A stretch of 64,000 nt of DNA from a virus. The notes beneath the pieces were generated by a model. It was not told where the DNA came from. It was given only the letters and a program-made list of their open reading frames with translations, and ran no database searches. The translations under genes and the position numbers were made by a program. Of the stretch, positions 1 to 41,976 are shown piece after piece. The stretch's first letter is position 1; every line of letters begins with the position of its first letter. The stretch spans positions 1 to 64,000 of IMG/VR virus record IMGVR_UViG_3300044591_000410, one strand, 5' to 3'.

Positions 1-123
1 CTGAATATAATTACACATTTTAAACACCAACTAACAGACTCCTTGTGAAAAATCTATAGGTTGGTTAGTCACTATTGTAACTTTTAATTTTTAAATTAAC
101 ACTAACTCTAAGGAGTATATAAA
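1..123 (+). other. Intergenic lead-in to the capsid gene
   Basis: In one frame a stop lies at 21-23, so this may hold the last codons of an upstream gene (a scaffold protein would be expected between portal and capsid), but too little is present to call it. The rest is AT-rich and non-coding. ACTAAC (about 30-35) and GTTAGT (about 64-69) form the outer arms of a weak interrupted inverted repeat. A clear SD (aaggag, about 110-115) serves the capsid start at 124. Confidence 0.5.
42..64 (+). promoter_or_regulatory. Possible phage RNA polymerase promoter upstream of the capsid gene
   Basis: CTATAGG at 54-60 matches the -5 to +2 core of T7-type promoters, placing +1 at about 59, where T7 has its strong phi-10 promoter in front of the capsid gene. 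The rest of the 23-bp frame matches T7 poorly. The better candidate is at 36916. Position is suggestive; sequence support is weak. Confidence 0.25.
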
Positions 124-1335: not shown

Positions 1336-1377
1336 TTGAATTAATATCCCAACCCATCAAGAAAGGAGGTAAACAAG

Positions 1378-1442
1378 TTGTCTTTGTTTGTTTTACAATC
1401 TTGAGGGGAGGTGATCTAATTATCTACGCGGTAGCCCCTTAA
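1378..1442 (+). other. Two tiny coupled ORFs running into the terminator loop
   Basis: A perfect SD (aaaggaggt, about 1362-1370) sits 7 nt before a TTG at 1378 that opens an 8-codon ORF ending TGA at 1402-1404. A second TTG at 1401 overlaps that stop (TTGA) and opens a 13-codon ORF ending TAA at 1440-1442, inside the loop of the terminator at 1432. It contains a second strong anti-SD match (ggaggtgatc, 1407-1416) with an in-frame ATT at 1419. The layout resembles an attenuator leader; translation is not shown. Confidence 0.3.
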
Positions 1443-1468
1443 CTGGGGCTATCGTGTTTTCTTTTTTT
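1432..1468 (+). terminator. Intrinsic terminator after the capsid gene
   Basis: TAGCCCC (1432-1438) pairs with GGGGCTA (1445-1451) around a 6-nt loop, followed by a T-rich run (tttt c ttttttt, about 1456-1467). This is the most classical terminator in the window and sits where T7 has Tphi. It should attenuate capsid-promoter transcripts before the tail genes. Confidence 0.8.
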
Positions 1469-1484
1469 CCAAAGGAGGCTATTA

Positions 1485-2153
1485 ATGGGAATGATTACTA
1501 AATTACAAGCTGTTAATAACATGCTTTTGGCTGCTGGTGAATCCCTAGTAGCCGACCTAGATAACGAGTCTGGTATTGATACTGAAATTGCTTTGACAAT
1601 CCTAGAAAATACCAGCCTAGACTATCAGCTTAGAGGTCTAGTTAATAATAAATACATCCGTAAAATAAACCCCAACGCATCTAGCAAGATTATTCTACCT
1701 ATGCCAGACGCTGATGAAGAGGGTATTATTTCTATTGAACTTAAGTCCCAGCATTTTAATGATGATGGTATCTTAATTCAAACCCGTCTATATAATTCAT
1801 CTCCACCAAGAATGTGGAATGTTACAGATGATACTGACATCTTCAAAAAAGATAAAGATTATTACTGGGAAATTATTCAGAAGATCAAGTGGGAGAATCT
1901 AGACACCCCAGCGCAACGGGCTATTATGACAACAGCAATGCGTCACTATCAGATTGTTACACAGGGTGACGAAGCTACTGATGCTTTCCTTGCTTATCAA
2001 GAACAGATGTTTGCTGCTAAGCAAAAGGCTGCTGATATTAATGATAAGAAAAGAAATATCTTTACCAGTGGTGATATCTCCGTAAGATCAGCCATTAGCC
2101 GTGTCCCATTCTCGTCAGATCCATCAAGATTCCGTTACTGGAGAACAGTTTAA
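1485..2153 (+). CDS. Tail tubular protein A (T7 gp11-like, gatekeeper/adaptor)
   Basis: A 222-residue protein that forms the ring between portal and nozzle in T7-type tails. The N-terminus (TKLQAVNNMLLAAGESLVAD) matches the family pattern in which LxAVNxML...GE..V is followed by a short acidic stretch. A helical C-terminal half carries the QRAIMT...AYQ region. Length is close to T7 gp11 (196 aa). Start ATG 1485 has an AAAGGAGG SD; ATG 1491 is a possible alternative. It lies between capsid and tail tubular B, the canonical order. Confidence 0.82.
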   Translation: MGMITKLQAVNNMLLAAGESLVADLDNESGIDTEIALTILENTSLDYQLRGLVNNKYIRKINPNASSKIILPMPDADEEGIISIELKSQHFNDDGILIQTRLYNSSPPRMWNVTDDTDIFKKDKDYYWEIIQKIKWENLDTPAQRAIMTTAMRHYQIVTQGDEATDAFLAYQEQMFAAKQKAADINDKKRNIFTSGDISVRSAISRVPFSSDPSRFRYWRTV

Positions 2154-27000: not shown

Positions 27001-30000
27001 GATCCTAGAAAGGCAGCTCTCATTGAACAACGAGTTGTGAGGGATATCCGGGAAGGTGCTACACAGTTATCAGACACTGTAGGACTAAACGAAGCTGAGA
27101 TAAACCTAGCAAACGACTTGATTACCAATACCAGAAAGTTCTTTACTTTCTTTGGAGATCAAGCTAAAAAACTAGGAAAAGACTTTGAAGATAGCTTTAC
27201 TTATGTTCCTCAAATGCTAACAAGAAAACTTGACTCAACCCAGCAAGCTAAACTAGCACAGTTGGGATATGAAGCAGCTGTTAGAAAGATAATGAAAGAA
27301 GGTAGCATTCCTTGGTCTGAACTAGAAAGACTAGGCCAGATTGAAAGAGGAACAGACGGTTCTATTATTAATATCCCAGAAACAAGTTTATTCTATAAAA
27401 CAGACGATGCTGGTAAAGCATTGCCGCTTTCTGAGATGGTAGCTCAAATGCCTAAAACAATGGATGAACTTCGTCTTTTAGAAGCTCAGAGAAGAAAGCT
27501 TAATAATGAACTGGCTGAGTTACCAGAAGATCTCCGTCAGATACTAGAAGCACCTAACACAGCACGGGTTAATAAAGAAAAGCTTAAGAGAGCACTAGAC
27601 GAACAAAAGAACAGAGTTAAAAAACTGTTTGACAGAGCTGTGGGTGTAAACGGTGGTTTTAATATCTTTGATATTAATGCTCTTGCTAAGAGCTTATATA
27701 CAATGAAGAAGTATGCCACTGAACTTGGCGAGTTAGATTATGTAGCTTATGCCGATGATCTATTAAAGAAACTAGATGATAATGGTTTGGCTATAAATGA
27801 AAAGCCCACTTCACCTAGAGATCATATAATTAATGGTCAAGATGATTTAATTAAAGCAGGATCTAAAGTAGAAGACTTAGAGTTAAAGGTAGTTGATACT
27901 TTTGCCCCTGAAATTACACTAACTCGTACCGCTCCAGATGGTACTAAAACTGTTGAAAAACTTAGTGAAGGTTTTGTAGTAAAGCAATGGGTTGATAAAA
28001 CCAAAGCTCCCGGACTGGACTTTGAAAACCCAGCAATGAGTTTACAAACTGTATTATTAAACCGAGCTGGTTCTGTGGCAGAAAAACAAGCAGCAGCTAA
28101 TGCTGGATTCCAGTATACTATTTCCAATATTGTTTCTCGTTTAGAAGATATGACTGGAACATCTGCTGGTGATAGTGTTAGAATTGGTTTTAATATTGAA
28201 GATTTAAGAACAGGTTTTATTACAGAAGAACATATCTTTAATTGGATGCGTTCTGAAAAATTTAAATCTGAACTAAACCAAATAAGACAACTTACAAAAA
28301 ACACGGGACTAAACGATGTTGAACTTGGTTTACTATTAATTAATAAGTATGTAGGAGAAGCTAAAGAATATCAGTTAAAGAGTATTAAACAATTAGCTGA
28401 ACAACGAGCAACAACCTTATTAGAAAACAGTCCTTATGCGAAATCACTACAACTAGAAAAAACACGCATAAACCAAGAATTGTTACAAATAGAAGAAGCT
28501 ATAAAGCTAACTTCTAGTGCTGATGAACAAAAACTTACCAACCTTACTAAACAAAAAATAAAGTTATTAGTAGAAAAAGAAAACTTATCTAAAGAACTAA
28601 AAGAAATGGAACAGGCTATTTCTTTAAAAGTATCTTCACAAATTGAAAGAACTTTAGCTAATGTTTCTGAAGATATTAATACTTTATTCTTAAAATCTAG
28701 AAGAGCTGGTAAACCTTTAGATAATTTAGATACTCTAACAGTATTTGATAAGAGACTTAATAAAGTTCTAGCGGATGCTTTAAATATAGAAAATCCTAAT
28801 TTTGTTTCGTGGAAACCAGTAGATAGTGAAGCTTTAAGCAGCCAAGTTAAAACCAGAGTTGTTACAGATTTAGAACAAACAACTAAACTATACCAACAGA
28901 AAACAAACTTAGTTCTTGAAAGAATAAAACTACAAAAAGAAATAAGCAACACCACACCGCCTAGTTTGATAGACGCAATTGAAAAGGCATACAAAGCAGC
29001 TGGTGTTGATGATATTGAAAAAGCTGTTAAAACTTTTGCTAAAAATAATGATAGAATTTCTAAGCTTGTAAAGACAATTAAGCAAAAGAAAAAACAATTA
29101 TCAGCTCTTGCAGACGATACCTCTGAAGAAGCTGGTGTATTGACTAATGACATCGCTAAACTAGAAGAAACTCTAGAAAAATCTTTAAACAAAGTTAGAA
29201 AAACTGTTATGTCAGAAAGAGCTAAAGTAGCCACAGAAGTAAAAAAGAAGGCTATTAAACAGCTTGAAAAAGACAAAGCAAAAGCACAGGAAAGACTTAC
29301 TAAAGTTGAAGAAGCTATAGGTGACTTAAGTAATCAGATTAAAGCACTAGACAAGAAATCTGAAGTAAGTGTGTACGGTACATTGTTTAATAAACTTAGT
29401 GGTGAAGAACAAGAAGCTTTATTAGAGTATATTAAACTAACTAAGGGTACAGCAGTTGGTCTAGAGTCTTTAGTATTTACAGAACAACTAGGTAAAGAAC
29501 TAGAAAACTTATTTGAATTTGGTGGCCCAGAAGCTTTAGCTAAATGGGGAATATCTCCAGAAAACTTTGTAGATAATAAACTTAATGCCGCTGGTCGTTT
29601 AGAATACTTACAATACTTAGCAAAAGAAATGCCCGGTGAAAAGGGCGCTGAACTTAAAGCTAGTCGTGCTAAGTTTATTGAAGAATCTACAAGCATGGAA
29701 AAACCTAAGATAAACTTAGAAACAGATCCTAAGGCTGTAATTGAAAGAGCTAAGTTAAGAAATAAAGCAATTCAAGAAGCAAGAGAATTAGAAAACAAAA
29801 TTGTACAAAGTATTGAAGATCTTGATGCAGACTATGAATTAGCTGCTGCATTAGATAAAGTAAAAGAAGCTTTAGAACTAGCTTCTACAAACACATCCTT
29901 AACAGAAGCCGTTAAAGTAAGTATCAGCACTGAACTTGATAATGCCAAAGCTGTTATACAAATACTTAGTGATTTAGATCCACGGTTTGAAACAGCTTTA

Positions 30001-33000
30001 GGATATGTAAAAAAACAGCTAGACTCAATTGATTTTACAAATGCAAGTAAAACAGGTGATCTGCTTGTAAAAGTAAATAAAGCAATACAAGCTTTAAGTG
30101 TAGAAGATTACCCAATTAAAGAAGCTTTAAGAACTTTCCAAAGCTCAGAACTTAAAAGACTACAAGAAGAGTATGGTGTTAATATAGCTAACTATATTGA
30201 AACAGCGGATAAGATTAGTGATTTGCAAGACTCCTTGTATAATGAGTTAGCTAACATTGAACTTGGACCTGAAGCTTTAATTAACCCAGCAGATCCTAAT
30301 AGCATGACTTATAGACAACTGTTTGATATGCTATATAACCTTAAGCATAACCAATCAAATGCTAGAAAAGCTATTAGAGATCATCTAGGTTCACTGCCGT
30401 TTGATACAGCAGACAAAGCAGATAAACTAAAAGCACTGTTTACTAAACTAGACGAACTGGAAGCAGTTGAACAAGGTTTAATTAAAGCTAACCTAGAAGG
30501 CCATTCTTTAAAGTTTGGTGAAGCAGTTTCTAACTGGGTAGATGAAACAAGAACAGCATTTGATGTATTTAAAACAGGCGTTAATAAAACCGAAAGTACT
30601 CGTTTCTTTAACCTAATGAAAGAAGGTTTAAATACAGGGTACTTAATTAGCAGAGTAAGAGGAGAAGACGGTAAGTATTTATACCGTGTTCTAGATCTTT
30701 ACCACCTTACCGATCAACGGTATGGAAGCATTGTTCCGACCGAAGTACATGCTGACTTTGACAAGATTGTCAGTATTATTCAAGTGCGGAAACAAACAAG
30801 ATCTAACTTAACTTTTGATAAAGTCCTACAACGAAAGAAGAAACTACTTAGCGAAAACGAAGCTATTTACGGACCAACTTTTGAATATCTTGAATCATTT
30901 AAAACCATTGTTGATGGTGCTTCTGTATTTGATATTAACTATGGTGCTTTCTTTAATGGGCCAGAGTTAATACGAAAAGAAGTAGAAAGCCTAAGAAAAA
31001 CAATACAAGATTCTTTAGAGGTTGTAAACACTGGTCGCAAAGAAGTTATTGCAGCTATTAATGATATTCAAAAAGCAGGACGAAGCGAAGCGAAGGTTGC
31101 TAACCTTTCTCCTGAACTACGAAGTTTAATGGCAGAAGCTCTAAAACGACAAAGAGAATATCAAGAAACTATTAGTAAACTTCTTAAAGAAGGCTTTGTT
31201 GGAACAAACCCACAACAAGCAAAAGCTTTACAATCTGTCTTTGATAGAATTCAAAAGCTTAGCAAGTTAAGTATAGAGCTTTACGAAGGTAAGATTCCTA
31301 CTTCTTATGAAGTTCAAAAAGCTGTAGCAAAAGCACCAGAACTAAAAGCCTTTAAGAACCGAGCCACAGCTAATAGACGGCGACTCTTAAAGAAAGAACT
31401 AGAAGAGAATGCAGATATTCTTGACTCTGAAATTAATACAGCAAATGAAGTTAAAGAACTAAACCGTCTTGGTAAACTTAGTAAGAGTATCAAACGAGAA
31501 ATGCGTAGGGTTGAAAACGGAGAATCTTCTGAGTTGTTTATTAAAACACCAGAAGGATATGTGATTCCAGACCCCAATCTTACAATGGATAGATTGGTAA
31601 CCCTTCTTAACCTTAGCGACACCAGACCTGAATACGCTGTGATTAGAGAAACAGCTAATGATTTCTTGCGACATGTTATTTATAAGAGACTGGTTAAGCA
31701 AAACAAATTGGCTGGCAGAGAGGTTAATTTCCGGTATGCAGACGCAATTGGAAGAGATGTAGACCAAATCGAAGATATAGTTGGTACTGTCTTTGCATCT
31801 TTCTTAGATTTTGAAAGAAAGATTGCAGTAAATGAACCTATCTTAATAAGCGCTGGTTTATCGGTTAAAACCAAAGATTTATTAGAAAACGCTCAAAGAT
31901 TGTTTGATACTTACAAAGCATCAAAAGATAGAGCAGAACAGCAAGAGTTATTACGACAGATCTATAAGATAGAGGGAGATCTGGATACAGTCTTACTACA
32001 AAGAAAACTTAAACGGGATGATACTGGAAAAGTTATTCGCAAGAAGGACGGAACCCCAGTTATTGAAACCAGCTTTGTTAAGTATGAGCCAGTTGATAAG
32101 AAAATCAAAACCAACTATCTCGTATCTGCTGCCATTAAAAAATATGTAGCGCAGTCCTTTAAGAAAAATACAAATGTTGAAAGATATGAAAAAGCTCTTT
32201 CTGAAGGTCTTGTTGAAAACAATGTTGGGTTGCGTTCATCCAACGGAGACTATATTGACCCAACCAGAGCAGAAGAACAGTTTGAAATAAACCAACTTCT
32301 ATCTATGTTTGCATTTGATAGAGACTCGTTTAATCAGTACTTACTGAGAACAGGTAAACTAAACACGCTAGGGGTAATGCCAAATAACCTTACAAATATT
32401 GGAGTTATCCAAAGAGGTTATTCATTCTTTATAGAAGAACTTCTTCGTGTTACTAGTTTAGATGTACCTGAAGTTACTATAGGTAACAAGAAATATCAAA
32501 TACTAACAAAACCAGAGGAACGAACTTTGCTTGGACGAAGAGAAGTATCTCGTCTAAATACGAATGAGTTCCTGCGATATATGGTAGACAGAATGGCGCT
32601 AGAGTACCGAACCTTAGCTAAGGATTCTACAGTACCCTCTATAATTGGTAACCTGTCTTTAGAATACTCTGATAAACAACTTAAAGAAATATTCTCAAGA
32701 GAACTTATTAAAGAGTATCTGCGAGTTGTTAGAAAGGATATAAGAAAAGTTGTTGGTGATACCTTTATTGACCTAGACGAAGTTCCTGCTGGTCGTTTGT
32801 TAAATCGGTTAGAAGAAGAAAGAAGAAGTATTCTAAAGAACTTTAGTGATGAAGTTCGTAAGAACAGCTCAAGCAAAGATTGGGTAGATGTTACAAAGCC
32901 TCGTTTAGAAGCAGCTAAGAACAAGAAACTAGCTGCTCTAGATGCTCAGATTGCTAGTGCTGAAAAAAAGATTGGAAGACTTCCAGCTTTAATTCGGACA

Positions 33001-36000
33001 CTAGAAGAAGAACTATTTGAAGAATCCTTAAAACCAACAATTAAGAATTATAAAACAATTCCAATTGACAGAGACATTACTGGAGTTGTAACAAAAACAA
33101 ATAGAGGTGGTGCTAAGTCAACAAGGTCATTAACAGATCTTATAGGTAAGTACTTAAACGGAACTTACTCTGAAAGTATTTTTGTACGCGATATACAGTT
33201 TGCTGCAAGACAATCTGATTTATTAAAAGCATTCAATAATTATGTAAAGAGAAATTATGATGTTGATACATTTGAAGAATATGTAATTAAAAAAGCTAAA
33301 GATAATACAGATGAATATGCAGATGGTTTAACTAAAGGTATTGAACTACGGCAAGAAGCACCATACGCTATTGAAAAGATTGATGAAGCCGAACAAGTAA
33401 TGCTCGGTATTATTTCAGAAAACTTCAAAGGCCAAACCGAAAAAGTATACTTAGGATTAGCTGAAACAGATAAAGATACTGCTCTACTGTTCCTAACTAC
33501 TGAACTAGCAGAACTTCAGAAGAACCTGACAAAGATGGGTGCATCTCAAGAAAAGCTGGAAAAGGTTACTAAGGTCCAGATTAAAGCACTTAGCGAACTG
33601 CTGACGCAATACTCTGATAGTCCTCTAGCTGCTAAGGCAGAATACAATGCTTTCCCCTTATTAAATGAACTGCGAAAAGTTTCTAATGAGGCAGTAACCA
33701 ATGTATCTGAAGGAAGCCCAGCTTACCTAATAGCATCTAAGCTATCTATTGAAGATGTAAACGCATACAAACGAGTAGCTGGTTCTCTTCTATTAAATGA
33801 AAATGTTAAAGATGCTTCTAAGATATTACCTGAACAAAGCATAATTAATATTCTAAATGATCTAGAATCATTTGGTTTTATTCAGAAACTTTCTACTTCT
33901 CCATTTAAAACTATTGAAGATTTAGTAGCACAAAACGGAAGCGTAGCTTCAATGTTTGAACTAACTACTCAGTCTTTAAATAACAGTCTTAATAAAGTTC
34001 TAGACTTTAGCCCAGAAAGTTTAATTCTTGGAAATGCTGTTAGATCTTCTACTGCCCAGCACAGAATTATGGGAACACTACGCAGTGCTACACTAAAGAA
34101 AAAACTAGCTAGCGTAGCTCCTGATTCAGATGAAGCAAGAAGAATAACAGATGAGATAAACAATTTCCTAAGCTCTGTTGAAAAAACAGAAGCAGAAGAA
34201 ATATTCCAAGCAATGGATAGATTGTTCCTTTTACAGCGAATGCAAAAAAACATTGGCAAGCTAAAGCCAGAAGATGTTGTGTCAGTTGAAGCAAGCGCTG
34301 GCGTTTCTAAAGAAGATATCATTTCATTCTTGAAACGAAAAGAAGCAGAAAATGTTTTAGAAATTGATGCTTTAAGTGCTAAGATTAGTACTTATAAAGC
34401 AAATAATTCAACTAAGATTATTCCAAAAGTTATGGAAAAAGAAGTTGGTAAGCTTCCAGATGTGAGTGTAGAACCTTGGAAGAATGGTAAGCTTGTTTCT
34501 GTAGCAGATCAAATTATGGATGCTCTAAAAGGTAATACTAAACATTATACTGGAAAGCATGCAGGAGCTACCAAGACAGGGCTACAAGAAGATATGGAAG
34601 CATGGGCTGCTGGTATGAACGGTGAGCCTTATACCCCCACAACCAGTGGAACTGTGCCTATACTAGAGTCGGCTAGAGCCAAGTCTTATGACGGTAGTGG
34701 TAAACCATACTTTAATAACGACGATCTGGTTGATCCTCAAAACGCTGAACTGGCAAGTTATCTGTCTAATGACTTAGGCGCTATAACTCAGAAGTACGCC
34801 AAAACAGCGGGAGCTAGTCTATCAGCTGATGTAGCATTGAGGGATAAGATTAAGCAGAAGTATGGTATTGATCTACCAAAGAACTTTGGTTGGTCTGATT
34901 GGATGGATGTTCTTCGGGATTATGTGGAAGGATTAAAACGAAATCCTTTAGTAGACTTTGAAGGAAGAGCAATTAAGATGAGCGATAAAGAAATTAATCA
35001 TCTTAAAGAAATTATTGATGGCATGTCCAGAATTCGCAGAGAGTTTACTGGTGAGGTTGATTCAACAGAGCTTCCGCCTCACGGTATTAGACAAGCAGCT
35101 AAGATGGGCAAGAATGCTTTACTGTCTACCGTTGGTCCTTTCATGGGTACTGCGGTACTGCTGACCGAACTACCTTTCAGTTTGTTCCGAAAGAACGGTT
35201 CTCTAAAGTCCTTCTTAAAGGGATTAGAAGTGTTATCTACTGGAAGCAGCCGAAGGAGATTGGAGCATACTGCATTTGCTTTTGAAAAATTAAACCGAGG
35301 TTTCCACTCTAAGTTTGGTGGAGAAGAATTAATTAATAATGAGATTACTTGGTTTAATAGACTGAAAGAAAACTTTAGAAACATGTTCTCCCCAGACGAA
35401 AGAATGTTACGAGAGTCTGGGGCTGGTAGACTATGGGATCATTTGGATAACTTCTTACAACACAAAGCAGCACTAAGCATGGAGCTGGGTGGCCTACCTC
35501 ACTTTGTGGAAAGAGTTTTAGCTGTAGCTTTAGAAAAAGAAAAGACTAATATATTTGGTCTACGGTCTAAGATTAGAAATGCCTTATCCCTTATGAACAC
35601 TCCTGAATTCAGGGCAGTAGCAGAACAGGCTGCTAGAGGTGATAAGAAAGCTCAGGCTGAAATTGTAAAACGATTTACTGGTATAGCCAGAGAGTCTGGA
35701 GTACCTATTGAAACTCTGTCTTACATTCGTATGGCTAAGATTGATACTCCTGAAGAAATGGATAGAATTATCAGAATCATGGAAGTAGGTTCAGATGGTA
35801 ATGGATCATTTGATGGTAATGTTGCAATTTCTAAACTGTACAAACAGTCTAACTCTAGAGTTGCAAAGAACATTGAAATGCCAATGTTTGAAGAATCAGC
35901 AGCTAAGCTGGCTTACTTCTTAGAACTATCCGCCAGAGAAGCATCTCCCGAACCATTTGGTTTGGGTAAGATTACTTATAAGTTTGAAAAGAATTCTTTG

Positions 36001-36822
36001 GGTGCTCAGCTACTATTCCTAGGTAGCTACCCCTTAGCTGCATTTAATACTTATAGTATTCGTAATGGCACAAGCAAGACCGCAGCAGCAATGATTGCAC
36101 TATCGCTGGGTGTCTTTGGATTTGAAATCTTTGCTAAGAGAATGAGAGATACTATGCGGGGTAAGAGAAACATGGAATCCAACTACGATGAGTATAGGGT
36201 TTCTCCGCTGGCTTACTTCCTGAGGGATGCCTCATATGCTCAGCTTGGTGGTCACCTAGATGCTGCCCTTGGCCCTATGTTTGTCATGGCAGGCAAGTCT
36301 ATGGCTCCACCCGGTACAAGTAAGGATTTCAAGTATCAGGCTCCAGAGTTCGGGGTAATGCCTCAGGCAGCTTATGTCAATGACCTAGCCCGTCAGACAT
36401 ACCAAGCTGTTAATGGGGTAGTAACTAAGGGCGATGGAAAGGAAGCGATAGACCTAGCTGGCCGGGTTGCTATAGATATGTCGGTAGGTAAAGGTGTAGT
36501 GGATACTGCTGGTATGATGCTTAACCTTATGGAAGCTACTAAGGCAGCAGCCATAAATCAACAACTACATCAGTATGGTCCAGTGCATACACCTACGGAA
36601 GAGGCATTCCATGATTATTTAATGCAGGGATTAATCTCTCATTATGTTTATGGAAGTACTAATATTCCAGAATTTAAGATGCCACCCGAACCTATGGTTA
36701 AACAGCCCAAACCTACAATTAAACCAGTCAAGGTAGGTTCTCAATTTAAGAAATTAAATATAGTAGACCAACTAAAGGGATCTACTGGAGTTTCTTCCGC
36801 TTTGGCAGAATCTTTAGAATAA
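24019..36822 (+). CDS. Giant internal virion/ejection protein (T7 gp16-like position)
   Basis: At 4267 residues it is about three times T7 gp16 (1318 aa) and fills 12.8 kb. Visible parts: hydrophobic Ala/Gly segments near 236-272 and 470-495; a very long charged helical/coiled-coil middle (about 700-3600) with many KLEEKIKRYER-like runs; hydrophobic C-terminal segments near 3696-3722 (STVGPFMGTAVLLTELPF) and 3994-4040 (LLFLGSYPLAAFNTYSIRNG then AAAMIALSLGVFGF), as in gp16-type proteins that insert in the inner membrane. I find no SLT catalytic motif and none of the N4-type vRNAP motifs. It probably acts in DNA ejection; embedded enzymes cannot be excluded. It is the last late gene before the non-coding gap. 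Confidence 0.72.
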   Translation: MTQYSTLGQSNSFYSNFGYFQPLEETDYQNVINKSINDNINVSLAGELQPNIFSTGDYSLKLTKGGPVNPTAVDLANSVLLDKTQEWMGGIFGRQPAVIDAAYYGLFGEKASGWKYVPFVDSWSKVEQERRRVDEQFVANKQKEIDTLLSERYKEQAPLVVEALQRNLGVNWKETFAKGANNKNAYAEQVYRFLLDETRKTTNKNALYSSLLNLKSNDKPIWNWTYANILSDYDVLASTALTLGVESLLTGSAVTLSAAASSATASAARATGIRLGATQGSEGVIRLAQTIGKTTGSPNWWSLFKSDYTLSTRLPAATRNAQRVLTQALQSGKITQDQIKVLQRLRPDLFTTAATGETIIANPFSIATNARKYLQFRGLEIAGTGQKVAINSVNRSKLVDALSKVALTTDDILLVGKSSSHLNYLFKVGKSGAVQGALDGATNAVFMGKERADQMLMAENIDIPSYNLSEVISSAALFGAFGFTLGIGFGAITSPVRTGLSALTAIDGRASLGTPNAKRGLLQYVGPDRMTESEFNLRNALASVVGKQAALAAEVNANSRVAIVRDIVKLLTGSEEIGVRLVDPKFLEANNLTIEEVSGLITFITQELIGKSSKSSQIGSIPAGLMDDIIAAYAQWKRANPTAAVNAFEIKAVAGEDFLKRLTEHGVNTNNSGKPSVLKTQTIDEINQEVSFLETVEAVEKLGASVVDGKIKVLKRRKQILEAKELRRKELPDLKKQLEELNTKDKTPEVEADIKKLEEKIKRYERQAGEPLKDNNPNAVIIRSSSTSVRTLQINGFDISTSRSGLLLSMWLDTVNKIHALAGQNTAEARKAVNQLRQEAKELEEQIDSLYRKPEEKSREEIRKNWFDEQFATIKNDPTKLAQFRQALGAALSQSSATTGSRAVSMNWLSQLRFESGLGELYTRLASYGTGTADLMYSVSDVLFHTMEMLDSSQLFSYASLADMGSSLSVKEAVDRGYRLAMGVNSITEQLRRMDPRKAALIEQRVVRDIREGATQLSDTVGLNEAEINLANDLITNTRKFFTFFGDQAKKLGKDFEDSFTYVPQMLTRKLDSTQQAKLAQLGYEAAVRKIMKEGSIPWSELERLGQIERGTDGSIINIPETSLFYKTDDAGKALPLSEMVAQMPKTMDELRLLEAQRRKLNNELAELPEDLRQILEAPNTARVNKEKLKRALDEQKNRVKKLFDRAVGVNGGFNIFDINALAKSLYTMKKYATELGELDYVAYADDLLKKLDDNGLAINEKPTSPRDHIINGQDDLIKAGSKVEDLELKVVDTFAPEITLTRTAPDGTKTVEKLSEGFVVKQWVDKTKAPGLDFENPAMSLQTVLLNRAGSVAEKQAAANAGFQYTISNIVSRLEDMTGTSAGDSVRIGFNIEDLRTGFITEEHIFNWMRSEKFKSELNQIRQLTKNTGLNDVELGLLLINKYVGEAKEYQLKSIKQLAEQRATTLLENSPYAKSLQLEKTRINQELLQIEEAIKLTSSADEQKLTNLTKQKIKLLVEKENLSKELKEMEQAISLKVSSQIERTLANVSEDINTLFLKSRRAGKPLDNLDTLTVFDKRLNKVLADALNIENPNFVSWKPVDSEALSSQVKTRVVTDLEQTTKLYQQKTNLVLERIKLQKEISNTTPPSLIDAIEKAYKAAGVDDIEKAVKTFAKNNDRISKLVKTIKQKKKQLSALADDTSEEAGVLTNDIAKLEETLEKSLNKVRKTVMSERAKVATEVKKKAIKQLEKDKAKAQERLTKVEEAIGDLSNQIKALDKKSEVSVYGTLFNKLSGEEQEALLEYIKLTKGTAVGLESLVFTEQLGKELENLFEFGGPEALAKWGISPENFVDNKLNAAGRLEYLQYLAKEMPGEKGAELKASRAKFIEESTSMEKPKINLETDPKAVIERAKLRNKAIQEARELENKIVQSIEDLDADYELAAALDKVKEALELASTNTSLTEAVKVSISTELDNAKAVIQILSDLDPRFETALGYVKKQLDSIDFTNASKTGDLLVKVNKAIQALSVEDYPIKEALRTFQSSELKRLQEEYGVNIANYIETADKISDLQDSLYNELANIELGPEALINPADPNSMTYRQLFDMLYNLKHNQSNARKAIRDHLGSLPFDTADKADKLKALFTKLDELEAVEQGLIKANLEGHSLKFGEAVSNWVDETRTAFDVFKTGVNKTESTRFFNLMKEGLNTGYLISRVRGEDGKYLYRVLDLYHLTDQRYGSIVPTEVHADFDKIVSIIQVRKQTRSNLTFDKVLQRKKKLLSENEAIYGPTFEYLESFKTIVDGASVFDINYGAFFNGPELIRKEVESLRKTIQDSLEVVNTGRKEVIAAINDIQKAGRSEAKVANLSPELRSLMAEALKRQREYQETISKLLKEGFVGTNPQQAKALQSVFDRIQKLSKLSIELYEGKIPTSYEVQKAVAKAPELKAFKNRATANRRRLLKKELEENADILDSEINTANEVKELNRLGKLSKSIKREMRRVENGESSELFIKTPEGYVIPDPNLTMDRLVTLLNLSDTRPEYAVIRETANDFLRHVIYKRLVKQNKLAGREVNFRYADAIGRDVDQIEDIVGTVFASFLDFERKIAVNEPILISAGLSVKTKDLLENAQRLFDTYKASKDRAEQQELLRQIYKIEGDLDTVLLQRKLKRDDTGKVIRKKDGTPVIETSFVKYEPVDKKIKTNYLVSAAIKKYVAQSFKKNTNVERYEKALSEGLVENNVGLRSSNGDYIDPTRAEEQFEINQLLSMFAFDRDSFNQYLLRTGKLNTLGVMPNNLTNIGVIQRGYSFFIEELLRVTSLDVPEVTIGNKKYQILTKPEERTLLGRREVSRLNTNEFLRYMVDRMALEYRTLAKDSTVPSIIGNLSLEYSDKQLKEIFSRELIKEYLRVVRKDIRKVVGDTFIDLDEVPAGRLLNRLEEERRSILKNFSDEVRKNSSSKDWVDVTKPRLEAAKNKKLAALDAQIASAEKKIGRLPALIRTLEEELFEESLKPTIKNYKTIPIDRDITGVVTKTNRGGAKSTRSLTDLIGKYLNGTYSESIFVRDIQFAARQSDLLKAFNNYVKRNYDVDTFEEYVIKKAKDNTDEYADGLTKGIELRQEAPYAIEKIDEAEQVMLGIISENFKGQTEKVYLGLAETDKDTALLFLTTELAELQKNLTKMGASQEKLEKVTKVQIKALSELLTQYSDSPLAAKAEYNAFPLLNELRKVSNEAVTNVSEGSPAYLIASKLSIEDVNAYKRVAGSLLLNENVKDASKILPEQSIINILNDLESFGFIQKLSTSPFKTIEDLVAQNGSVASMFELTTQSLNNSLNKVLDFSPESLILGNAVRSSTAQHRIMGTLRSATLKKKLASVAPDSDEARRITDEINNFLSSVEKTEAEEIFQAMDRLFLLQRMQKNIGKLKPEDVVSVEASAGVSKEDIISFLKRKEAENVLEIDALSAKISTYKANNSTKIIPKVMEKEVGKLPDVSVEPWKNGKLVSVADQIMDALKGNTKHYTGKHAGATKTGLQEDMEAWAAGMNGEPYTPTTSGTVPILESARAKSYDGSGKPYFNNDDLVDPQNAELASYLSNDLGAITQKYAKTAGASLSADVALRDKIKQKYGIDLPKNFGWSDWMDVLRDYVEGLKRNPLVDFEGRAIKMSDKEINHLKEIIDGMSRIRREFTGEVDSTELPPHGIRQAAKMGKNALLSTVGPFMGTAVLLTELPFSLFRKNGSLKSFLKGLEVLSTGSSRRRLEHTAFAFEKLNRGFHSKFGGEELINNEITWFNRLKENFRNMFSPDERMLRESGAGRLWDHLDNFLQHKAALSMELGGLPHFVERVLAVALEKEKTNIFGLRSKIRNALSLMNTPEFRAVAEQAARGDKKAQAEIVKRFTGIARESGVPIETLSYIRMAKIDTPEEMDRIIRIMEVGSDGNGSFDGNVAISKLYKQSNSRVAKNIEMPMFEESAAKLAYFLELSAREASPEPFGLGKITYKFEKNSLGAQLLFLGSYPLAAFNTYSIRNGTSKTAAAMIALSLGVFGFEIFAKRMRDTMRGKRNMESNYDEYRVSPLAYFLRDASYAQLGGHLDAALGPMFVMAGKSMAPPGTSKDFKYQAPEFGVMPQAAYVNDLARQTYQAVNGVVTKGDGKEAIDLAGRVAIDMSVGKGVVDTAGMMLNLMEATKAAAINQQLHQYGPVHTPTEEAFHDYLMQGLISHYVYGSTNIPEFKMPPEPMVKQPKPTIKPVKVGSQFKKLNIVDQLKGSTGVSSALAESLE

Positions 36823-36999: not shown

Positions 37000-37318
37000 T
37001 AGGAATCTACCCCGGTAATTGCGGGGTTGGTCCCTAGTGGATATCCTTGGTATCTGTCATTATGGCGGTAGAAATCGACTTAGGGGTCGTGGATTTACAA
37101 CGGGGTATTTGACATAGTGTGGCCGCGCACACCCCCCGCCACCCCCCGTCGATGTCCCCTAGGGGCATATGCCGGGTCAATCCGAAGCAATCCGAACAAT
37201 TTGCCTAGGATTCCCATGCTCCGAGTTCATGGGGTATATCTATTGGAATCAGAGGAGTTTCCCATCAGCGTGATGGTATCCCCTGCTTCTTTCCTAGTGT
37301 TCTCGAAAGGAACAAGCG

Positions 37319-37585
37319 ATGTCCAACAAGGATATGGCTGCGGCACTCGCCGCTATCGTCGCCCTGCTCTCGCAGCAGGGCATCACCGTCCCCACCACCA
37401 AGCCCGTGAAGGCGCGCAAGGCCAAGGCGAAGGCCGAGCCGAAGGCCAAGCGCAAGAAGGGCGCAACCCCCGCTCAACGCGCTCATTACAACTCCATGAA
37501 GACCAGCCACCCTTGCCCGTTCCGTCCCGGAATGGTCGAGCGTGAAGCCTACCGCGCAGCGAAGGCTGCGGGGCTGATTGGCTGA
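37319..37585 (+). CDS. Early-cassette basic protein, unknown
   Basis: An 88-residue protein in GC-rich DNA. The N-terminus is a short hydrophobic helix (MSNKDMAAALAAIVALLSQQ), followed by a Lys/Ala/Pro-rich basic linker (28-50) and a C-terminal piece with SHPCPFRPGMVEREAYRAAK. The last part resembles the PC...CYRAAKKGI region of the protein at 38859, suggesting a shared small domain. SD gaaagga upstream of ATG 37319. It is followed by two hairpin terminators. As the first gene after the genome-end region it is probably immediate-early; function unknown. Confidence 0.6.
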   Translation: MSNKDMAAALAAIVALLSQQGITVPTTKPVKARKAKAKAEPKAKRKKGATPAQRAHYNSMKTSHPCPFRPGMVEREAYRAAKAAGLIG

Positions 37586-37601
37586 TCGGGCGACAACTTT
37601 G

Positions 37602-37628
37602 GAGTACCCACCCTACGGGGTGGGACTC
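37602..37628 (+). terminator. Stable UACG-loop hairpin after the first early gene
   Basis: GAGT (37602-37605) with ACTC (37625-37628), a bulged A, then CCCACCC/GGGTGGG closing a TACG tetraloop with a C-G pair. There is no T run. The same architecture, including bulge and loop, recurs at 39582. Confidence 0.5.
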
Positions 37629-37651
37629 TCCTAGGCTGTTGCCAAGGCTGT

Positions 37652-37681
37652 GCCACAGCAGAACTGTGGCTGTTTCTTTCT
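37652..37681 (+). terminator. Intrinsic terminator
   Basis: GCCACAG (37652-37658) and CTGTGGC (37664-37670) form a 7-bp stem with a 5-nt loop followed by a T-rich stretch tgtttctttct. Just downstream lies the SD of the 38-residue peptide at 37696. Confidence 0.65.
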
Positions 37682-37695
37682 GAAAGGTTTCAAAC

Positions 37696-37812
37696 ATGGG
37701 AATCATTCTTGGTACTTTGGCTTTGTTGGGTCTTGCAAGTTTCTTGGCATTTGCAGTCATGTGGGACACCATGACCCCGAGCGACCGCCGCAAGGCGGGA
37801 TTCAAGGACTAA
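37696..37812 (+). CDS. 38-residue single-pass membrane peptide
   Basis: It has one hydrophobic helix (MGIILGTLALLGLASFLAFA, residues 1-22) followed by a charged tail (DTMTPSDRRKAGFKD). SD gaaaggt lies 9 nt before the ATG. It is flanked by hairpins on both sides, so it is a separate small unit of the early cassette. Membrane-acting early peptides in phages often target host functions, but nothing specific is visible. Confidence 0.5.
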   Translation: MGIILGTLALLGLASFLAFAVMWDTMTPSDRRKAGFKD

Positions 37813-37818
37813 CATTTC

Positions 37819-37896
37819 ACTCAAGGTAAACCTAACGGTTTGCCTTGGGTTTCTAGGTAGCACTTTGCTACCAGCAGCGTCACGGCTGAACCGTGA
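37819..37896 (+). promoter_or_regulatory. Three consecutive hairpins in the leader of the Csx16-like gene
   Basis: Hairpin 1: 37819-37832 with 37837-37850, about 14 bp including G-U pairs, loop TAAC. Hairpin 2: GGTAGCA (37856-37862) with TGCTACC (37866-37872), loop CTT. Hairpin 3: TCACGG (37880-37885) with CCGTGA (37891-37896), loop CTGAA. They fill the gap between the membrane peptide and the SD at about 37909. Hairpin 1 may be a terminator; the others could be processing sites or a regulatory leader. Confidence 0.5.
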
Positions 37897-37921
37897 TATT
37901 CCTTACAGAAAGGAGACATCC

Positions 37922-38299
37922 ATGAAGGATGTCATCATCGTGACCCGCCATGCGGGTCTAGTCATTGTCCTCGCAGAGGACTACGGAATTGCGGGGCCAG
38001 TCTTGGCCCACGTTACTGCCGCAGATGTACGCGGCAAGGCCGTCGTTGGAGTGCTTCCGCTGCATTTGGCTGCGGAAGCGAAGTCGGTGACCGAGGTTAC
38101 CCTGAATCTCCCCCCCGAACTGCGGGGGCAAGAACTCACCATTGAGCAGGTGCGGCAGCATATGAAGGGACTCCGCACCTATGTGGTGCGAAGCCTTGAA
38201 GCCTTCAACCTCAACAACGAAGAGGAGTGGAGGTCGGGGTATGGTGGAAGCATGGGGTGGGGCTCGATCCCCGACCCCATCGGGAGGAAGTCGAAGTGA
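37922..38299 (+). CDS. Csx16-like protein (type III CRISPR-associated family), candidate anti-CRISPR
   Basis: A 125-residue protein. Residues 1-95 follow the Csx16 (Cas_VVA1548) family: an N-terminal VTRHAG, a middle VVGVLPLHLAAE matching the family GTLPvhLAAevC core, and LNLPPELRGQELT matching the L.L.lP...RGrELsa signature. From the literature as I recall, Csx16 is found beside type III CRISPR systems and is linked to handling cyclic oligoadenylate second messengers (ring-nuclease-type). A phage copy would suit blocking that signalling. The C-terminal 30 residues are an extra Gly/Trp-rich tail. ATG 37922 has a strong SD (aaaggag). The stop overlaps the next GTG. Family call fairly sure; role inferred. 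Confidence 0.75.
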   Translation: MKDVIIVTRHAGLVIVLAEDYGIAGPVLAHVTAADVRGKAVVGVLPLHLAAEAKSVTEVTLNLPPELRGQELTIEQVRQHMKGLRTYVVRSLEAFNLNNEEEWRSGYGGSMGWGSIPDPIGRKSK

Positions 38300-38610
38300 A
38301 GAAGCATCAGCCTTGGGGCAAGGACATCGTTATCATCAAGGTTTACGACCTTGATGCCGTGCTCCTCTTCGACCGTGCTGTAATCGAAGAGGTAGCAAGG
38401 GAAGAGGCGGAGAAGATCGCCTCGACCCTGTTCCCCGGATACAAGGTGCAATGGTGTACCCCGTCCGGAAAGACCCTTGGTCAGGTGACTGCCGCACCTG
38501 CACCGCAACACAAGTTGCCTGTTTGCCCTTTCTGTGGGCAACTCCTTGTCACCATGCGTGACGAGGTTGGAGCAAAGTGCGCCATGTGTTTCAGTTGGAT
38601 CCACGGATGA
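38296..38610 (+). CDS. Zinc-ribbon-like early protein coupled to the Csx16-like gene
   Basis: A 104-residue protein starting at GTG 38296, overlapping the Csx16-like stop (GTGA), with GGAGG 7 nt upstream. Residues 1-55 form an alpha/beta segment with DIVIIKVYDLDAVLLFDRAV. The C-terminus carries CPFCG and CAMC, a four-cysteine zinc ribbon (about 77-98). Coupling suggests a related function, perhaps a partner of the Csx16-like protein; no known family is recognised. Confidence 0.6.
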   Translation: MKKHQPWGKDIVIIKVYDLDAVLLFDRAVIEEVAREEAEKIASTLFPGYKVQWCTPSGKTLGQVTAAPAPQHKLPVCPFCGQLLVTMRDEVGAKCAMCFSWIHG

Positions 38611-38636
38611 TAGCGATTCGTGGACGCAGCACCTCT

Positions 38637-38656
38637 CGCGCGTAAACATACGCGCG
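38637..38656. repeat. CGCGCGT/ACGCGCG inverted repeat
   Basis: CGCGCGT (38637-38643) and ACGCGCG (38650-38656) around the loop AAACAT, 26 nt after the zinc-ribbon gene. A related half element recurs at 38708-38715 with its own GCATAC/GTATGC arms. It could be a terminator stem or a protein-binding dyad beside the repeats at 38667 and 38735. Confidence 0.4.
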
Positions 38657-38666
38657 TTGGTATATG

Positions 38667-38687
38667 GGCTTGATTTGTCCTAGTGGA
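38667..38687 (+). promoter_or_regulatory. 21-bp direct repeat, copy 1 (candidate promoter/operator)
   Basis: The 21-bp element beginning GGCTTGATTTGTCC and ending TAGTGGA is repeated perfectly at 38735-38755, 68 bp downstream. A shorter relative (TCCCTAGTGGA) lies at 37030-37041 in the main gap. TATGG precedes both copies. Perfect repetition in a non-coding gap of the cassette suggests a promoter or operator, possibly for the second RNA polymerase. Confidence 0.5.
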
Positions 38688-38734
38688 CAACGGCCCACGG
38701 CCTCTGCATACGCGCATATGTGTATGCTTATGGC

Positions 38735-38755
38735 GGCTTGATTTGTCCTAGTGGA
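38735..38755 (+). promoter_or_regulatory. 21-bp direct repeat, copy 2
   Basis: Identical to 38667-38687. The downstream bases differ (gatgctc versus caacggc), so the conserved unit is sharply bounded, as for a recognition site. It is followed after 8 nt by the hairpin at 38764. Confidence 0.5.
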
Positions 38756-38763
38756 GATGCTCA

Positions 38764-38796
38764 CCCCTGCATAGGCGAAGGCTTATGTGGGGGTTT
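38764..38796 (+). terminator. Hairpin with TTT after the repeats
   Basis: CCCC (38764-38767) with GGGG, and CATAGGC (38770-38776) with GCTTATG (38781-38787, one G-U), loop GAAG, then TTT at 38794-38796. If the repeats are promoters, this would act as an attenuator before the next gene. Confidence 0.4.
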
Positions 38797-38858
38797 CACC
38801 ATGCATCAGCGTAGGTGTATGGTTGTTTGGTTTCTTTCTTTATGAAAGGAAGGGGCAA

Positions 38859-39566
38859 ATGAACATCAGCCCCGATATCGTCCAGCAGATCCTCCTCTCC
38901 CTCTTGCAGAGTCAGGCTGCTTCTGCCACCACCACCGTGGCTCCCGCTCCTGTGGCTACGGCCTCCCCTTCGTGGGTTGACGCAGTCACCGCTGCCTTTC
39001 CTGCCATCGTTGGCAGCAACGGCAAGCGCGGGTCGATGAACATCGCGAAGAATCCTTGCTTCACGGCATCGACAAAGGAAGTTCACGAAGGTGTGAACAA
39101 CGAGATCGCCAACGGCAAGCCGGGGATTTGGTGCGCCGAGGCTTGCTACCGTGCTGCCAAGAAGGGCATTGCGGTCAGCGAGTACCTCAAGGCCAAGACT
39201 CCGGCTCCTGCCAAGGCTGCAACCCCTTCTCCTACCGTTACGGTGGCGACCATTCCGCCTGAACTGGCGGCAATGGCCGAGCAGATGGGCTTCACCTTGG
39301 TTCCCAAGGCTGATGCTTCCGTGGCTCCCCCTGTCAAGCGCATGAAGGGGCAGGCCCGTTTGACCTGCCTTCAGACTGCGTTGGCTGCGGCCAAGGCGGG
39401 CGAGCGCGGCGCTGCCAAGGTGGAGTTGGTGCAGGTCGGACTCCTCAAGGAGTCTGACAAGATGCGTCTTGGCAAGATGATCCCGCTGATCGAAGCGGAG
39501 ATTGCCAAGATGACCACGGTCAGCAAGGCTCCTCACGCGGGAGTCCCCAACCTGACGGTGGCCTGA
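38859..39566 (+). CDS. Early-cassette Ala/Pro-rich protein, unknown
   Basis: A 235-residue protein in GC-rich DNA. An N-terminal helix (MNISPDIVQQILLSLLQSQA) is followed by an Ala/Pro/Thr linker (21-37), a cysteine-containing domain (about 38-110; NPCFTASTKEVHEG, WCAEACYRAAKKG), a second Ala/Pro linker, and a basic helical C-terminus (about 155-235). I chose ATG 38859 because SD gaaaggaagg lies 8 nt upstream; the longer frame lacks one. The middle domain shares PC...YRAAK with the 37319 protein. No known function. Confidence 0.55.
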   Translation: MNISPDIVQQILLSLLQSQAASATTTVAPAPVATASPSWVDAVTAAFPAIVGSNGKRGSMNIAKNPCFTASTKEVHEGVNNEIANGKPGIWCAEACYRAAKKGIAVSEYLKAKTPAPAKAATPSPTVTVATIPPELAAMAEQMGFTLVPKADASVAPPVKRMKGQARLTCLQTALAAAKAGERGAAKVELVQVGLLKESDKMRLGKMIPLIEAEIAKMTTVSKAPHAGVPNLTVA

Positions 39567-39581
39567 ACATCCCGAGTTTCG

Positions 39582-39608
39582 GAGTATCCCTTCTACGGAA
39601 GGGAACTC
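39582..39608 (+). terminator. UACG-loop hairpin after the 38859 gene
   Basis: GAGT (39582-39585) with ACTC (39605-39608), bulged A, then TCCCTTC/GAAGGGA closing TACG. The outer GAGTTT/AAACTT arms (39574-39579, 39613-39618) may extend it. It has the same architecture as 37602-37628 with a different stem sequence, so the fold is conserved, not the bases. Confidence 0.5.
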
Positions 39609-39622
39609 TCCCAAACTTGGGG

Positions 39623-39648
39623 TACTAGTAACATACGGGTTACTAGTA
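39623..39648. promoter_or_regulatory. Perfect 10-bp palindrome upstream of the second RNA polymerase
   Basis: TACTAGTAAC (39623-39632) and GTTACTAGTA (39639-39648) around ATACGG. It lies 34 nt before the start of the RNA polymerase gene and is followed by AT-rich DNA and a good SD (gaaaggag). It could be an operator for a dimeric regulator or a transcript hairpin. Confidence 0.5.
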
Positions 39649-39681
39649 TAAGTTAGCATCTTCACTAGAAAGGAGAATCAC

Positions 39682-41715
39682 ATGAATCAGAAACTGCTTG
39701 AGCAGCAGTTTGTGGGTTGTGTGAACAACGCAGAAGTTGTGATTGCTGGTTTCGCAGAAGCCCTTGGTAACTTGCGGTTTAGCCGCAAGCCTGCATGGTT
39801 CAAGTTCGTGCAGCAGAATACCAACTGGGTGGCGAACGCTACGGTGTATGCCGTCGTTCGCAATGTTTCGGAACGAGCAACCACCGAAGTTCACGCTGTC
39901 ATTGCAGACCTTGCGTTTGCAATCCAGCGGGACTGGCAGGTGGATCGTAACGATGCGTTGACTTGGGCATGGAACATCGTTCACTTGGCTGAACAAGCCG
40001 GGTGGGTGACCTTGTACAAGACTTCGGAAATGACCCTCGTCAAGATGACCTCACGCTTTGCGTTTCAGCTGTATGAGAACAATGCGTGGGGCATGGCGGG
40101 TTGTTTCCGTCCACCGATGGTGGAACGACCACGGCCACACCGTGACAGTCGCCCCGGAGGATACCACAACCCACAGATGCGGCGTGGTATTAGCCACGGA
40201 TCATGGAAGGAACTTGCGAGTGCGCCTCGCATGATTCTCACCATGAATCGCATGATGTTCACGAAGTGGCATATCTCGCAAGAGATGTTGTCCATTGCGA
40301 AGGAAGTCTTTGCACTTCCTGAAGTGATCGTGGATCATCGTCGTGATCGGTATGGACACGACACCACGCTGGCAATGGCCGAGCAGTTCAGCGGTGTGGA
40401 GTTCTACAATCCCACCTACGCTGATGTTAGCGGTCGCATTTATTATGAGTGTGACTTGCTGTCACCGCAGGGCAATGACCTTGCGCGTGGTTTGCTGCAT
40501 GGAACAGACCATGCCCTTACTGATAAGGGTTGGTTCTGGCTTGCGGTGCATGTGGCAAACTCTTTCAGCGGCATCGGTGGCGTTGGTAAACTTGACAAGA
40601 CTCCTTACAAGGATCGTGTCAAGTGGACACACAAGAACTCCGATACGCTCTGCCTCGTTGCCGAAGACCCCATGCGTTACATGCATGTGTGGTTCAACGG
40701 CATCGGGAAGGGAGCGGGATCATTCCAAGCACTTGCTGCGCTGCTTGCTTGGCGACGAGCCAAGGACACCGGACGATGCTGTTTGCATGTGAGGTTGGAT
40801 CAGACAACCTCCAACTACGGCATCAAGGGTGGGCTGCTGCGAGATCAGCAACTGTGCGAGTTGACCAACATGGTTCCCTCGTCCGAGGTGCAGGATATGC
40901 ACAGCGTGACGGCTACAAACCTTATGGGTTTGTTGGCTGATTCCGATTATTCGGATTTCACAACCATGATTGCTGGGACACCGGACAAGCCTAACCGCAA
41001 GTTCGTCAAGTCACCCAGCATGGTCAGCGGCTACGGTGGTACGACCCGTGGCATTGCACAGTCGTTGTTTGGAAAGCGTGAGTGGGCTTTCCACGACAAC
41101 AAGTGGAAGAAGGTTGCCGAAGAAGGCAGCATCCCCGACCTTGTGTCTGGTGACGATCCTCGCCATCAGTTCAAGGTGGCAATGGATATTGCTTCCATGT
41201 GTAAGGAAGCAGTAGAAATCACCGCTCCCGGTGCGTTCAAGGTCATGCGTTATCTCAAGGAGGTTGTCAAGGTTGCCCGTGAGAAGAAGATGGAGAACAT
41301 TATGTGGTATTCTCCATCAGGCAAACTCATTGTGCTTCATCCTCGTAAGCGGGGTGAGCAGATGATCGTGGCATCATCCGAGTTTGGTGGTGCTTCACTC
41401 AAGTGGCATCCTTGGACTGATGAAACCAACTGGCGTAAGATGGCTACGGCCATCTCTCCACGATGGATTCAACCCATCGACGCTTCCCTTCTTCACATTG
41501 CAGGCAGTATGTTCCGGCATGAGTTTGCCGGGGTGCATGACTGCATCCAATGTCACCCCAATCAGATGGGGAAGTTTCTTGTGTACATGAGGAAGGCAAT
41601 GTACATGATTATGGAATCCAATCCTCTTGTCAAGTTCTGTGAGCAGTTCGGCATTACTGTTGAGCAGGGCGATTGGGATACCAAGGATTGCCTCAAGGCT
41701 AATCCTTGGCACTAA
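39682..41715 (+). CDS. Second, divergent single-subunit DNA-dependent RNA polymerase
   Basis: A 677-residue protein with all T7-type catalytic positions: DVSGR (D248-R252) followed by CDLLSPQGNDLARGLL, motif A aspartate D373 (RLDQTTSNYGIKGG), motif B R439, K443, Y451-G (spacing identical to T7 R627, K631, Y639), and motif C HD at H619-D620 (GVHDC, preceded by SPRWIQPIDASLLH). The N-terminal part before DxxGR is about 247 residues against 420 in T7, so promoter-recognition elements differ. It is GC-rich and uses CGN arginine codons. A separate canonical enzyme is at 47960. It probably transcribes a gene subset, such as the early cassette. Confidence 0.82.
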   Translation: MNQKLLEQQFVGCVNNAEVVIAGFAEALGNLRFSRKPAWFKFVQQNTNWVANATVYAVVRNVSERATTEVHAVIADLAFAIQRDWQVDRNDALTWAWNIVHLAEQAGWVTLYKTSEMTLVKMTSRFAFQLYENNAWGMAGCFRPPMVERPRPHRDSRPGGYHNPQMRRGISHGSWKELASAPRMILTMNRMMFTKWHISQEMLSIAKEVFALPEVIVDHRRDRYGHDTTLAMAEQFSGVEFYNPTYADVSGRIYYECDLLSPQGNDLARGLLHGTDHALTDKGWFWLAVHVANSFSGIGGVGKLDKTPYKDRVKWTHKNSDTLCLVAEDPMRYMHVWFNGIGKGAGSFQALAALLAWRRAKDTGRCCLHVRLDQTTSNYGIKGGLLRDQQLCELTNMVPSSEVQDMHSVTATNLMGLLADSDYSDFTTMIAGTPDKPNRKFVKSPSMVSGYGGTTRGIAQSLFGKREWAFHDNKWKKVAEEGSIPDLVSGDDPRHQFKVAMDIASMCKEAVEITAPGAFKVMRYLKEVVKVAREKKMENIMWYSPSGKLIVLHPRKRGEQMIVASSEFGGASLKWHPWTDETNWRKMATAISPRWIQPIDASLLHIAGSMFRHEFAGVHDCIQCHPNQMGKFLVYMRKAMYMIMESNPLVKFCEQFGITVEQGDWDTKDCLKANPWH

Positions 41716-41736
41716 TATGCTAGGAAAGGTTTGATA

Positions 41737-41976
41737 ATGACGCAGACGATGAAGCAGATCAAGCAGTTGATTTACTTTCATGCTCCCGATAAGGAGACTT
41801 TGGATAGGATGTTGGCGTTTCTTGATGCCAACGATAACTTGATTGCGGCACAGGATCGGCTTATTGATGCTTATAAGGATAACATCAAGAAGCAAAAGGA
41901 AATCATCGAAGCACAGAAAAATCTGTGTGAGATGCAGACGACGCAGATTCGGGTTCTCTCTGAAAGGAACGCATGA
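41737..41976 (+). CDS. Coiled-coil mini-protein, unknown
   Basis: A 79-residue protein, mostly one amphipathic helix (residues 25-75: RMLAFLDANDNLIAAQDRLI and KKQKEIIEAQKNLCEMQTTQ). I start at ATG 41737 after SD aggaaagg; a TTG at 41731 is in frame but less likely. It is first in a chain of overlapping small genes; the stop overlaps the next ATG. Confidence 0.55.
   Translation: MTQTMKQIKQLIYFHAPDKETLDRMLAFLDANDNLIAAQDRLIDAYKDNIKKQKEIIEAQKNLCEMQTTQIRVLSERNA

Follow-up and report, generated by a model that had tools for sequence, protein, structure and literature searches.

A divergent Csx16-like protein of a T7-like phage: a candidate viral ring nuclease directed against type III CRISPR signaling

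The ring nuclease activity of Csx16 was not confirmed until 2025, and evidence for the protein in phages had rested on two genome records among 28,114 phage genomes (Hoikkala et al. 2025, PMC12409355). According to the same study, Csx16 degrades cA4 and not cA6, remaining specific for cA4 even at tenfold more enzyme, and the tested protein cuts neither cA3 nor cA6 even at high enzyme. The occurrence of a csx16-like gene in a phage genome raises the question whether such a gene counters host immunity, belongs to a CRISPR system carried by the virus, or is passive cargo. We addressed this question for a 64-kb window, the whole stretch of DNA analyzed here, of a 68,158-base IMG/VR record, in which the gene had been predicted to encode an early Csx16-like factor that might disarm type III CRISPR or a related defense based on cyclic nucleotides.

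A divergent Cas_VVA1548 protein encoded by a phage

The gene and its product are located as follows:
37922..38299, + strand: csx16-like open reading frame (ORF), from ATG to TGA, 125 aa
37922..38299, + strand: Csx16-like (Cas_VVA1548) protein of the ring nuclease type, with the family domain in residues 6-89 and a variable C-terminal tail in residues 90-125
37907..37921, + strand: ribosome-binding site AGAAAGGAGACATCC, preceding the csx16 ATG (read from the sequence)

The ribosome-binding site that serves the ORF is strong (AGAAAGGAGACATCCATG / AGAAAGGAG) and shares the motif AGAAAGGAGA with the 5' side of a downstream RNA polymerase gene (39667-39676). The three motifs that the original prediction had noticed are all found, in order, in the 125-aa ORF, namely VTRHAG (residues 7-12), VVGVLPLHLAAE (residues 41-52) and LNLPPELRGQELT (residues 61-73), and the conserved TRH/SRH, GxLP and RGxEL residues are present at positions 8-10, 43-46 and 68-72. 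A Pfam profile search matched the protein to PF09652 (Cas_VVA1548/Csx16) at 63 bits (E=3e-17), where the gathering cut-off is 25; the match covers profile positions 2-90 of 91. The PADLOC Csx16 model gave 57 bits. Judged by these profile scores, the similarity to PF09652 is far past chance, and the protein is a true, if divergent, viral homolog of the Cas_VVA1548/Csx16 family, as originally claimed. Of the two profiles proposed for checking this assignment, PF09652 thus gave a clear match, whereas the score for TIGR02620, the NCBIfam equivalog model of CRISPR-locus Csx16, was 24 bits, under the cut-off of 46.35, so that the substrate or the catalysis could have shifted. No PHROGs family was found for the protein and, PF09652 being its sole Pfam hit, there was no match to DUF1874 (AcrIII-1). 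A sequence search of the PDB returned 142 hits, none of them a full-length match; most were DARPin or ankyrin sequences aligned with an Ala/Leu-rich HLAAEA stretch, and we rejected these as a composition artefact.

An alignment of the window protein with 74 relatives (A5) shows no substitution at R9, H10, G43, L45, P46 or G69, and conservation of at least 90% at T8, L13, L17, H30, V41, L49, R68, L72 and V89. The AlphaFold2 model built from this alignment is a confident alpha/beta structure with a mean pLDDT of 90.6 (91-98 for residues 1-100, with a weaker tail). Its invariant residues are placed in loops where strands 4-7 and 40-43 end and after 55-61. In the model, this placement is consistent with a single ligand face, as is usual for the Rossmann fold, and in the published Csx16 model the conserved cluster is likewise found on a single face (PMC12409355). 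A Foldseek comparison of the model with the PDB and viral libraries, in which no Csx16 structure is known to be present, detected nothing significant; a weak match to Csx1-Crn2 with cA4 (rank 20, E=2.4) was not relied on. Comparison of csx16 with two viral relatives gave dN 0.28 and dS 0.76 (dN/dS ~0.37; L046) and dN 0.49 and dS 1.51 (L047), and the low dN relative to dS indicates that the protein is kept under purifying selection.

The divergence from the CRISPR-locus model would also fit a cA4 sponge, that is, a protein that binds and sequesters the signal and cleaves it slowly or never, as reported for Csx15, a related protein of the CARF superfamily with good binding but very slow cleavage of cA4 (PMC13148439). 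We consider a sponge improbable, given that the residues conserved in the active Csx16 family are retained in the window protein, that Csx15 is not found in phages, and that sponging is thought to be ineffective against the large amounts of cOA made in type III responses (PMC13148439). Cleavage of cA4 is the reading that we favor and develop below.

A GC-rich island in a T7-like phage

The phage carrying csx16 is T7-like. The window has genes of the T7 supergroup, encoding a T7-type major head protein and large terminase, tail proteins, an internal virion protein, a primase-helicase, DNA polymerase, ribonucleotide reductase and dUTPase, together with four tRNAs; the large terminase is 36-39% identical to the terminases of T7-like phages, many of them from Proteobacteria. 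The csx16 gene follows the structural genes and shortly precedes a gene for a single-subunit RNA polymerase, within a region of distinct composition:
37000..41800, no strand: GC-rich island of ~4.8 kb, mostly 50-62% GC against a window mean of 41% (composition profiles)
38296..38610, + strand: translationally coupled small protein (104 aa; GTG start) whose C-terminal part has a CPFCG...CAMC zinc ribbon (ORF calls)
39682..41715, + strand: divergent single-subunit (T7/N4-type) RNA polymerase (PF00940, E=2e-30; phrog_414, E=1e-84)

Besides csx16 (60% GC, compared with 41% for the window), the island contains the RNA polymerase, the zinc-ribbon gene and an unassigned ORF at ~38814-39566. It has the look of a segment acquired by horizontal transfer, bringing csx16 and a second RNA polymerase. 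The two single-subunit RNA polymerases of the window (39682-41715 and 47960-50440) both belong to PHROG 414 and are just 22% identical to each other; the island enzyme is the shorter one (677 aa) and has a divergent motif A (LDQTTSNYG, compared with MDGTCNGIQH), while keeping the HD and K...YG motifs.

The place of csx16 by the RNA polymerase in the island suggests that it is one of the early accessory genes. This position fits the original description of csx16 as an early gene, whereas a promoter scan, with 3 promoters found and 2.2 expected, gave nothing above chance, so that early expression is what we infer from position.

Several other features of the window were observed. An exact 21-nt direct repeat, GGCTTGATTTGTCCTAGTGGA, occurs at 38667-38687 and 38735-38755 and nowhere else in the window, with none expected from shuffles; it is possibly a promoter or another regulatory site. 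Just 5' of csx16, a small ORF (37696-37812, ~38 aa, MGIILGTLALLGLASFLAFAVMWDTMTPSDRRKAGFKD) reads like a one-helix membrane peptide. A single ORF of 4267 aa (24019-36822) adjoins the structural genes and possibly encodes a very large internal virion protein. Finally, the two ends of the 68,158-base record (L130), at window positions 1-1563 and in the final 1575 bases, are 89% identical over ~1.57 kb, with the major head protein gene included; either the genome is circular and its assembly combined two strains, or the head gene is duplicated.

Csx16 relatives in viruses

Besides the window, at least 87 viral contigs in IMG/VR carry Csx16 relatives, as found by an alignment-guided scan (35 loci), a broader scan (84 loci, 80 kept) and two other scans that added two contigs; pattern scans miss divergent members, viral and cellular alike, and these counts and those for cellular genomes given below are accordingly lower bounds rather than frequencies. 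The [TS]RH motif is present in all 85 viral relatives tallied (81 TRH and 4 SRH; 78 distinct sequences), GxLP in 83 and RGx[ED]L in 78, and the PF09652 cut-off was passed by 20 of the 20 viral relatives tested. A phrog_2 terminase is encoded in 37 of 73 viral records tested, and a Terminase_6C domain was detected in 14.

The possibility that these genes belong to CRISPR systems carried by the viruses was rejected: no Csm1-type cas10 was detected in the 77 virus records searched, including the 68,158-base record of the window. Next to the window csx16 itself there is no sign of a type III CRISPR locus, with no Csm1-family match on the record and no cas gene recognized among the neighbors, which bears out the earlier view that the gene is not part of a phage CRISPR system.

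Among 50,697 phage records, the only cultured virus with a match was the archaeal Methanobacterium virus Drs3, represented by two records (MH674343 and NC_062738), which are likely the two phage genomes reported previously (PMC12409355). Gene 3 of Drs3 (AXN53384, annotated as 'putative CRISPR-associated protein') resembles the window gene in encoding a virus-borne, stand-alone Cas_VVA1548 protein. It differs in coming from an archaeal virus, in being 37% identical to the window protein over residues 3-79, and in falling outside the large viral clade described below.

Plasmids, cellular genomes and a separate branch

The same kind of scan applied to 84,980 species genomes identified one locus, in a Patescibacteria MAG, where the contig is 4.7 kb long; among 380 Patescibacteria genomes, the Csx16 family was found in that one alone. 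This match (L044, 4207-4575) is the only one of its type from a cellular genome and is possibly viral DNA in the bin. The search patterns of the genome scan, applied identically, retrieved 18 viral contigs and 1 genome contig, and patterns of the CRISPR-locus type retrieved one contig from IMG/VR.

For comparison, CRISPR-locus Csx16 sequences located near cas genes were sampled from Allochromatium, Aeromonas and Photobacterium. On the TIGR02620 model, the Allochromatium CRISPR-locus protein scored 114 bits, the window protein and four viral relatives (L009, L047, L052 and L061) 17-26, a further viral relative (L035) 44, a Deinococcus plasmid copy 25, and the Drs3 protein 45. In a tree of 87 rows, the CRISPR-locus sequences fall on one side of a branch with support 99/87, and 80 viral or plasmid rows together with the MAG row (81 rows) form another clade, with support 92/95; as the tree includes three CRISPR-locus sequences and 95 columns, the separateness of the clade calls for a wider sample. 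The plasmid copies, from Deinococcus proteolyticus and Allomeiothermus silvanus, fall within the viral clade. No annotated cas gene is located near any of the three plasmid copies in the stretch shown, and one copy adjoins a conjugative coupling protein. By sequence comparison, Csx16 is widespread in viruses and plasmids, on a branch that appears separate from the sampled CRISPR-locus proteins.

The A. silvanus plasmid pMESIL02 has three Csx16-like places (L004, 3001-5016; L129, 3989-4774), one of which is a 671-aa fusion that, by eye, seemingly includes a second, degenerate Csx16-like unit; another is the copy that adjoins the conjugative coupling protein, and near neither of the two is a cas gene annotated.

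The window protein shares with CRISPR-locus Csx16 its Pfam family over residues 6-89 and the [TS]RH, GxLP and RGxEL motifs, and the tested family member is a cA4 ring nuclease (PMC12409355). Unlike CRISPR-locus Csx16, it is encoded away from cas genes, has TRH and GVLP instead of SRH and G[TS]LP, falls on a separate tree branch, and stays below the TIGR02620 cut-off (24 bits against 46).

The distribution bears on two alternatives. The first is that csx16 is passive cargo acquired from a type III locus of a host, retained by chance or because it benefits the host, with no anti-defense role; its location in a GC-rich island unlike the remaining phage would fit such an origin. Purifying selection on the gene, the presence of relatives in the at least 87 virus contigs and on non-CRISPR plasmids, in a branch apart from the sampled CRISPR-locus Csx16, and the near absence of relatives of the viral type from cellular genomes together make this explanation highly improbable in our view. 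The second is that the protein acts on another nucleotide signal, for example cA3 of CBASS or a related cyclic nucleotide, so that its target would not be type III CRISPR. The distinctness of the viral clade and the existence of broad phosphodiesterases and sponges carried by phages against CBASS are compatible with this scenario, which we nevertheless regard as unlikely because the single tested Csx16 is specific for cA4 (PMC12409355) and the motifs are conserved. An activity on cA4 directed against type III CRISPR remains our preferred interpretation.

Genes adjacent to viral csx16

In the window, the zinc-ribbon ORF starts with a GTG (38296) that overlaps the csx16 stop by 4 nt; its Lar and C4 zinc-finger matches in Pfam are all sub-threshold. 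The original prediction proposed this protein as a partner of Csx16, a suggestion that the wider comparison does not support: no relative of the 104-aa protein was detected beside other viral csx16 genes in any fetched locus, and ORFs of the zinc type are located directly 3' of viral csx16 in 6 of 73 cases, about the background rate (6.5% of background small ORFs). Accordingly, a zinc-ribbon partner was rejected as a general feature of csx16. Zinc-ribbon-like extensions are present in ~6 of 80 viral Csx16 frames (L060, L063, L064, L066, L078 and L117), at the N or the C end. They make up four or more architectures and recur, but remain a minor feature. A conserved neighbor or defense island was rejected as well: among 100 genes flanking viral csx16, the most common family, pentapeptide repeats, accounts for 3, and no cas genes were found except Csx16 itself.

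Proposed function

In summary, the protein is homologous to Csx16 and retains the conserved residues, its gene is under purifying selection and lies in a virus record in which no Csm1-type cas10 was detected, and its relatives are widely spread. On this basis we consider it probable that the product of the window gene is a stand-alone viral cA4 ring nuclease and blocks signaling by type III CRISPR. The anti-type III role suggested originally thus holds up, the protein being a homolog of Csx16, a cA4 ring nuclease (PMC12409355), with relatives in viruses that lack Csm1-type cas10. We envisage the following mechanism. The Csx16-like protein, made early in infection, would form a small Rossmann-like dimer and bind cA4 on the face that carries the loops with the invariant T8-R9-H10, G43-x-L45-P46 and R68-G69. 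By analogy with the published CRISPR-locus enzyme, it would cut cA4 to linear products, draining the cA4 alarm raised by the host Cas10, such that effectors of the CARF type would not be activated and type III CRISPR immunity would presumably fail, to the benefit of the phage.

Under this working model, the window protein would resemble AcrIII-1/Crn2 (DUF1874) as a viral cA4 ring nuclease directed against type III CRISPR, while belonging to another family with no sequence match to it. It would similarly resemble phage Csx20, Crn4b and AcrIII-2 (viral SAVED), phage-borne ring nucleases derived from CRISPR that are proposed or shown to be anti-CRISPRs (PMC12409355, PMC12830947, PMC12751052), all of which have families or folds separate from that of the window protein.

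Implications

The concept of phage ring nucleases and the presence of Csx16 in phages have already been published; the present data add the size and the apparent separateness of the viral Csx16 branch. We lean toward the broader view that a dedicated Csx16 clade is common to the viruses and plasmids of many prokaryotes and constitutes a widespread class of ring nucleases that act as type III anti-CRISPRs. This clade would be separate from the CRISPR-locus branch and is hardly ever encountered in collections of cultured phages. If so, CRISPR-locus and viral Csx16 would represent parallel 'off-switch' and 'sabotage' branches, as is the case for Crn2 and AcrIII-1. Provided that its members are active, the viral branch would give phages a further common means of countering type III immunity, indicate that the hosts of these viruses are under type III pressure, and offer many natural variants with which to map Csx16 catalysis.
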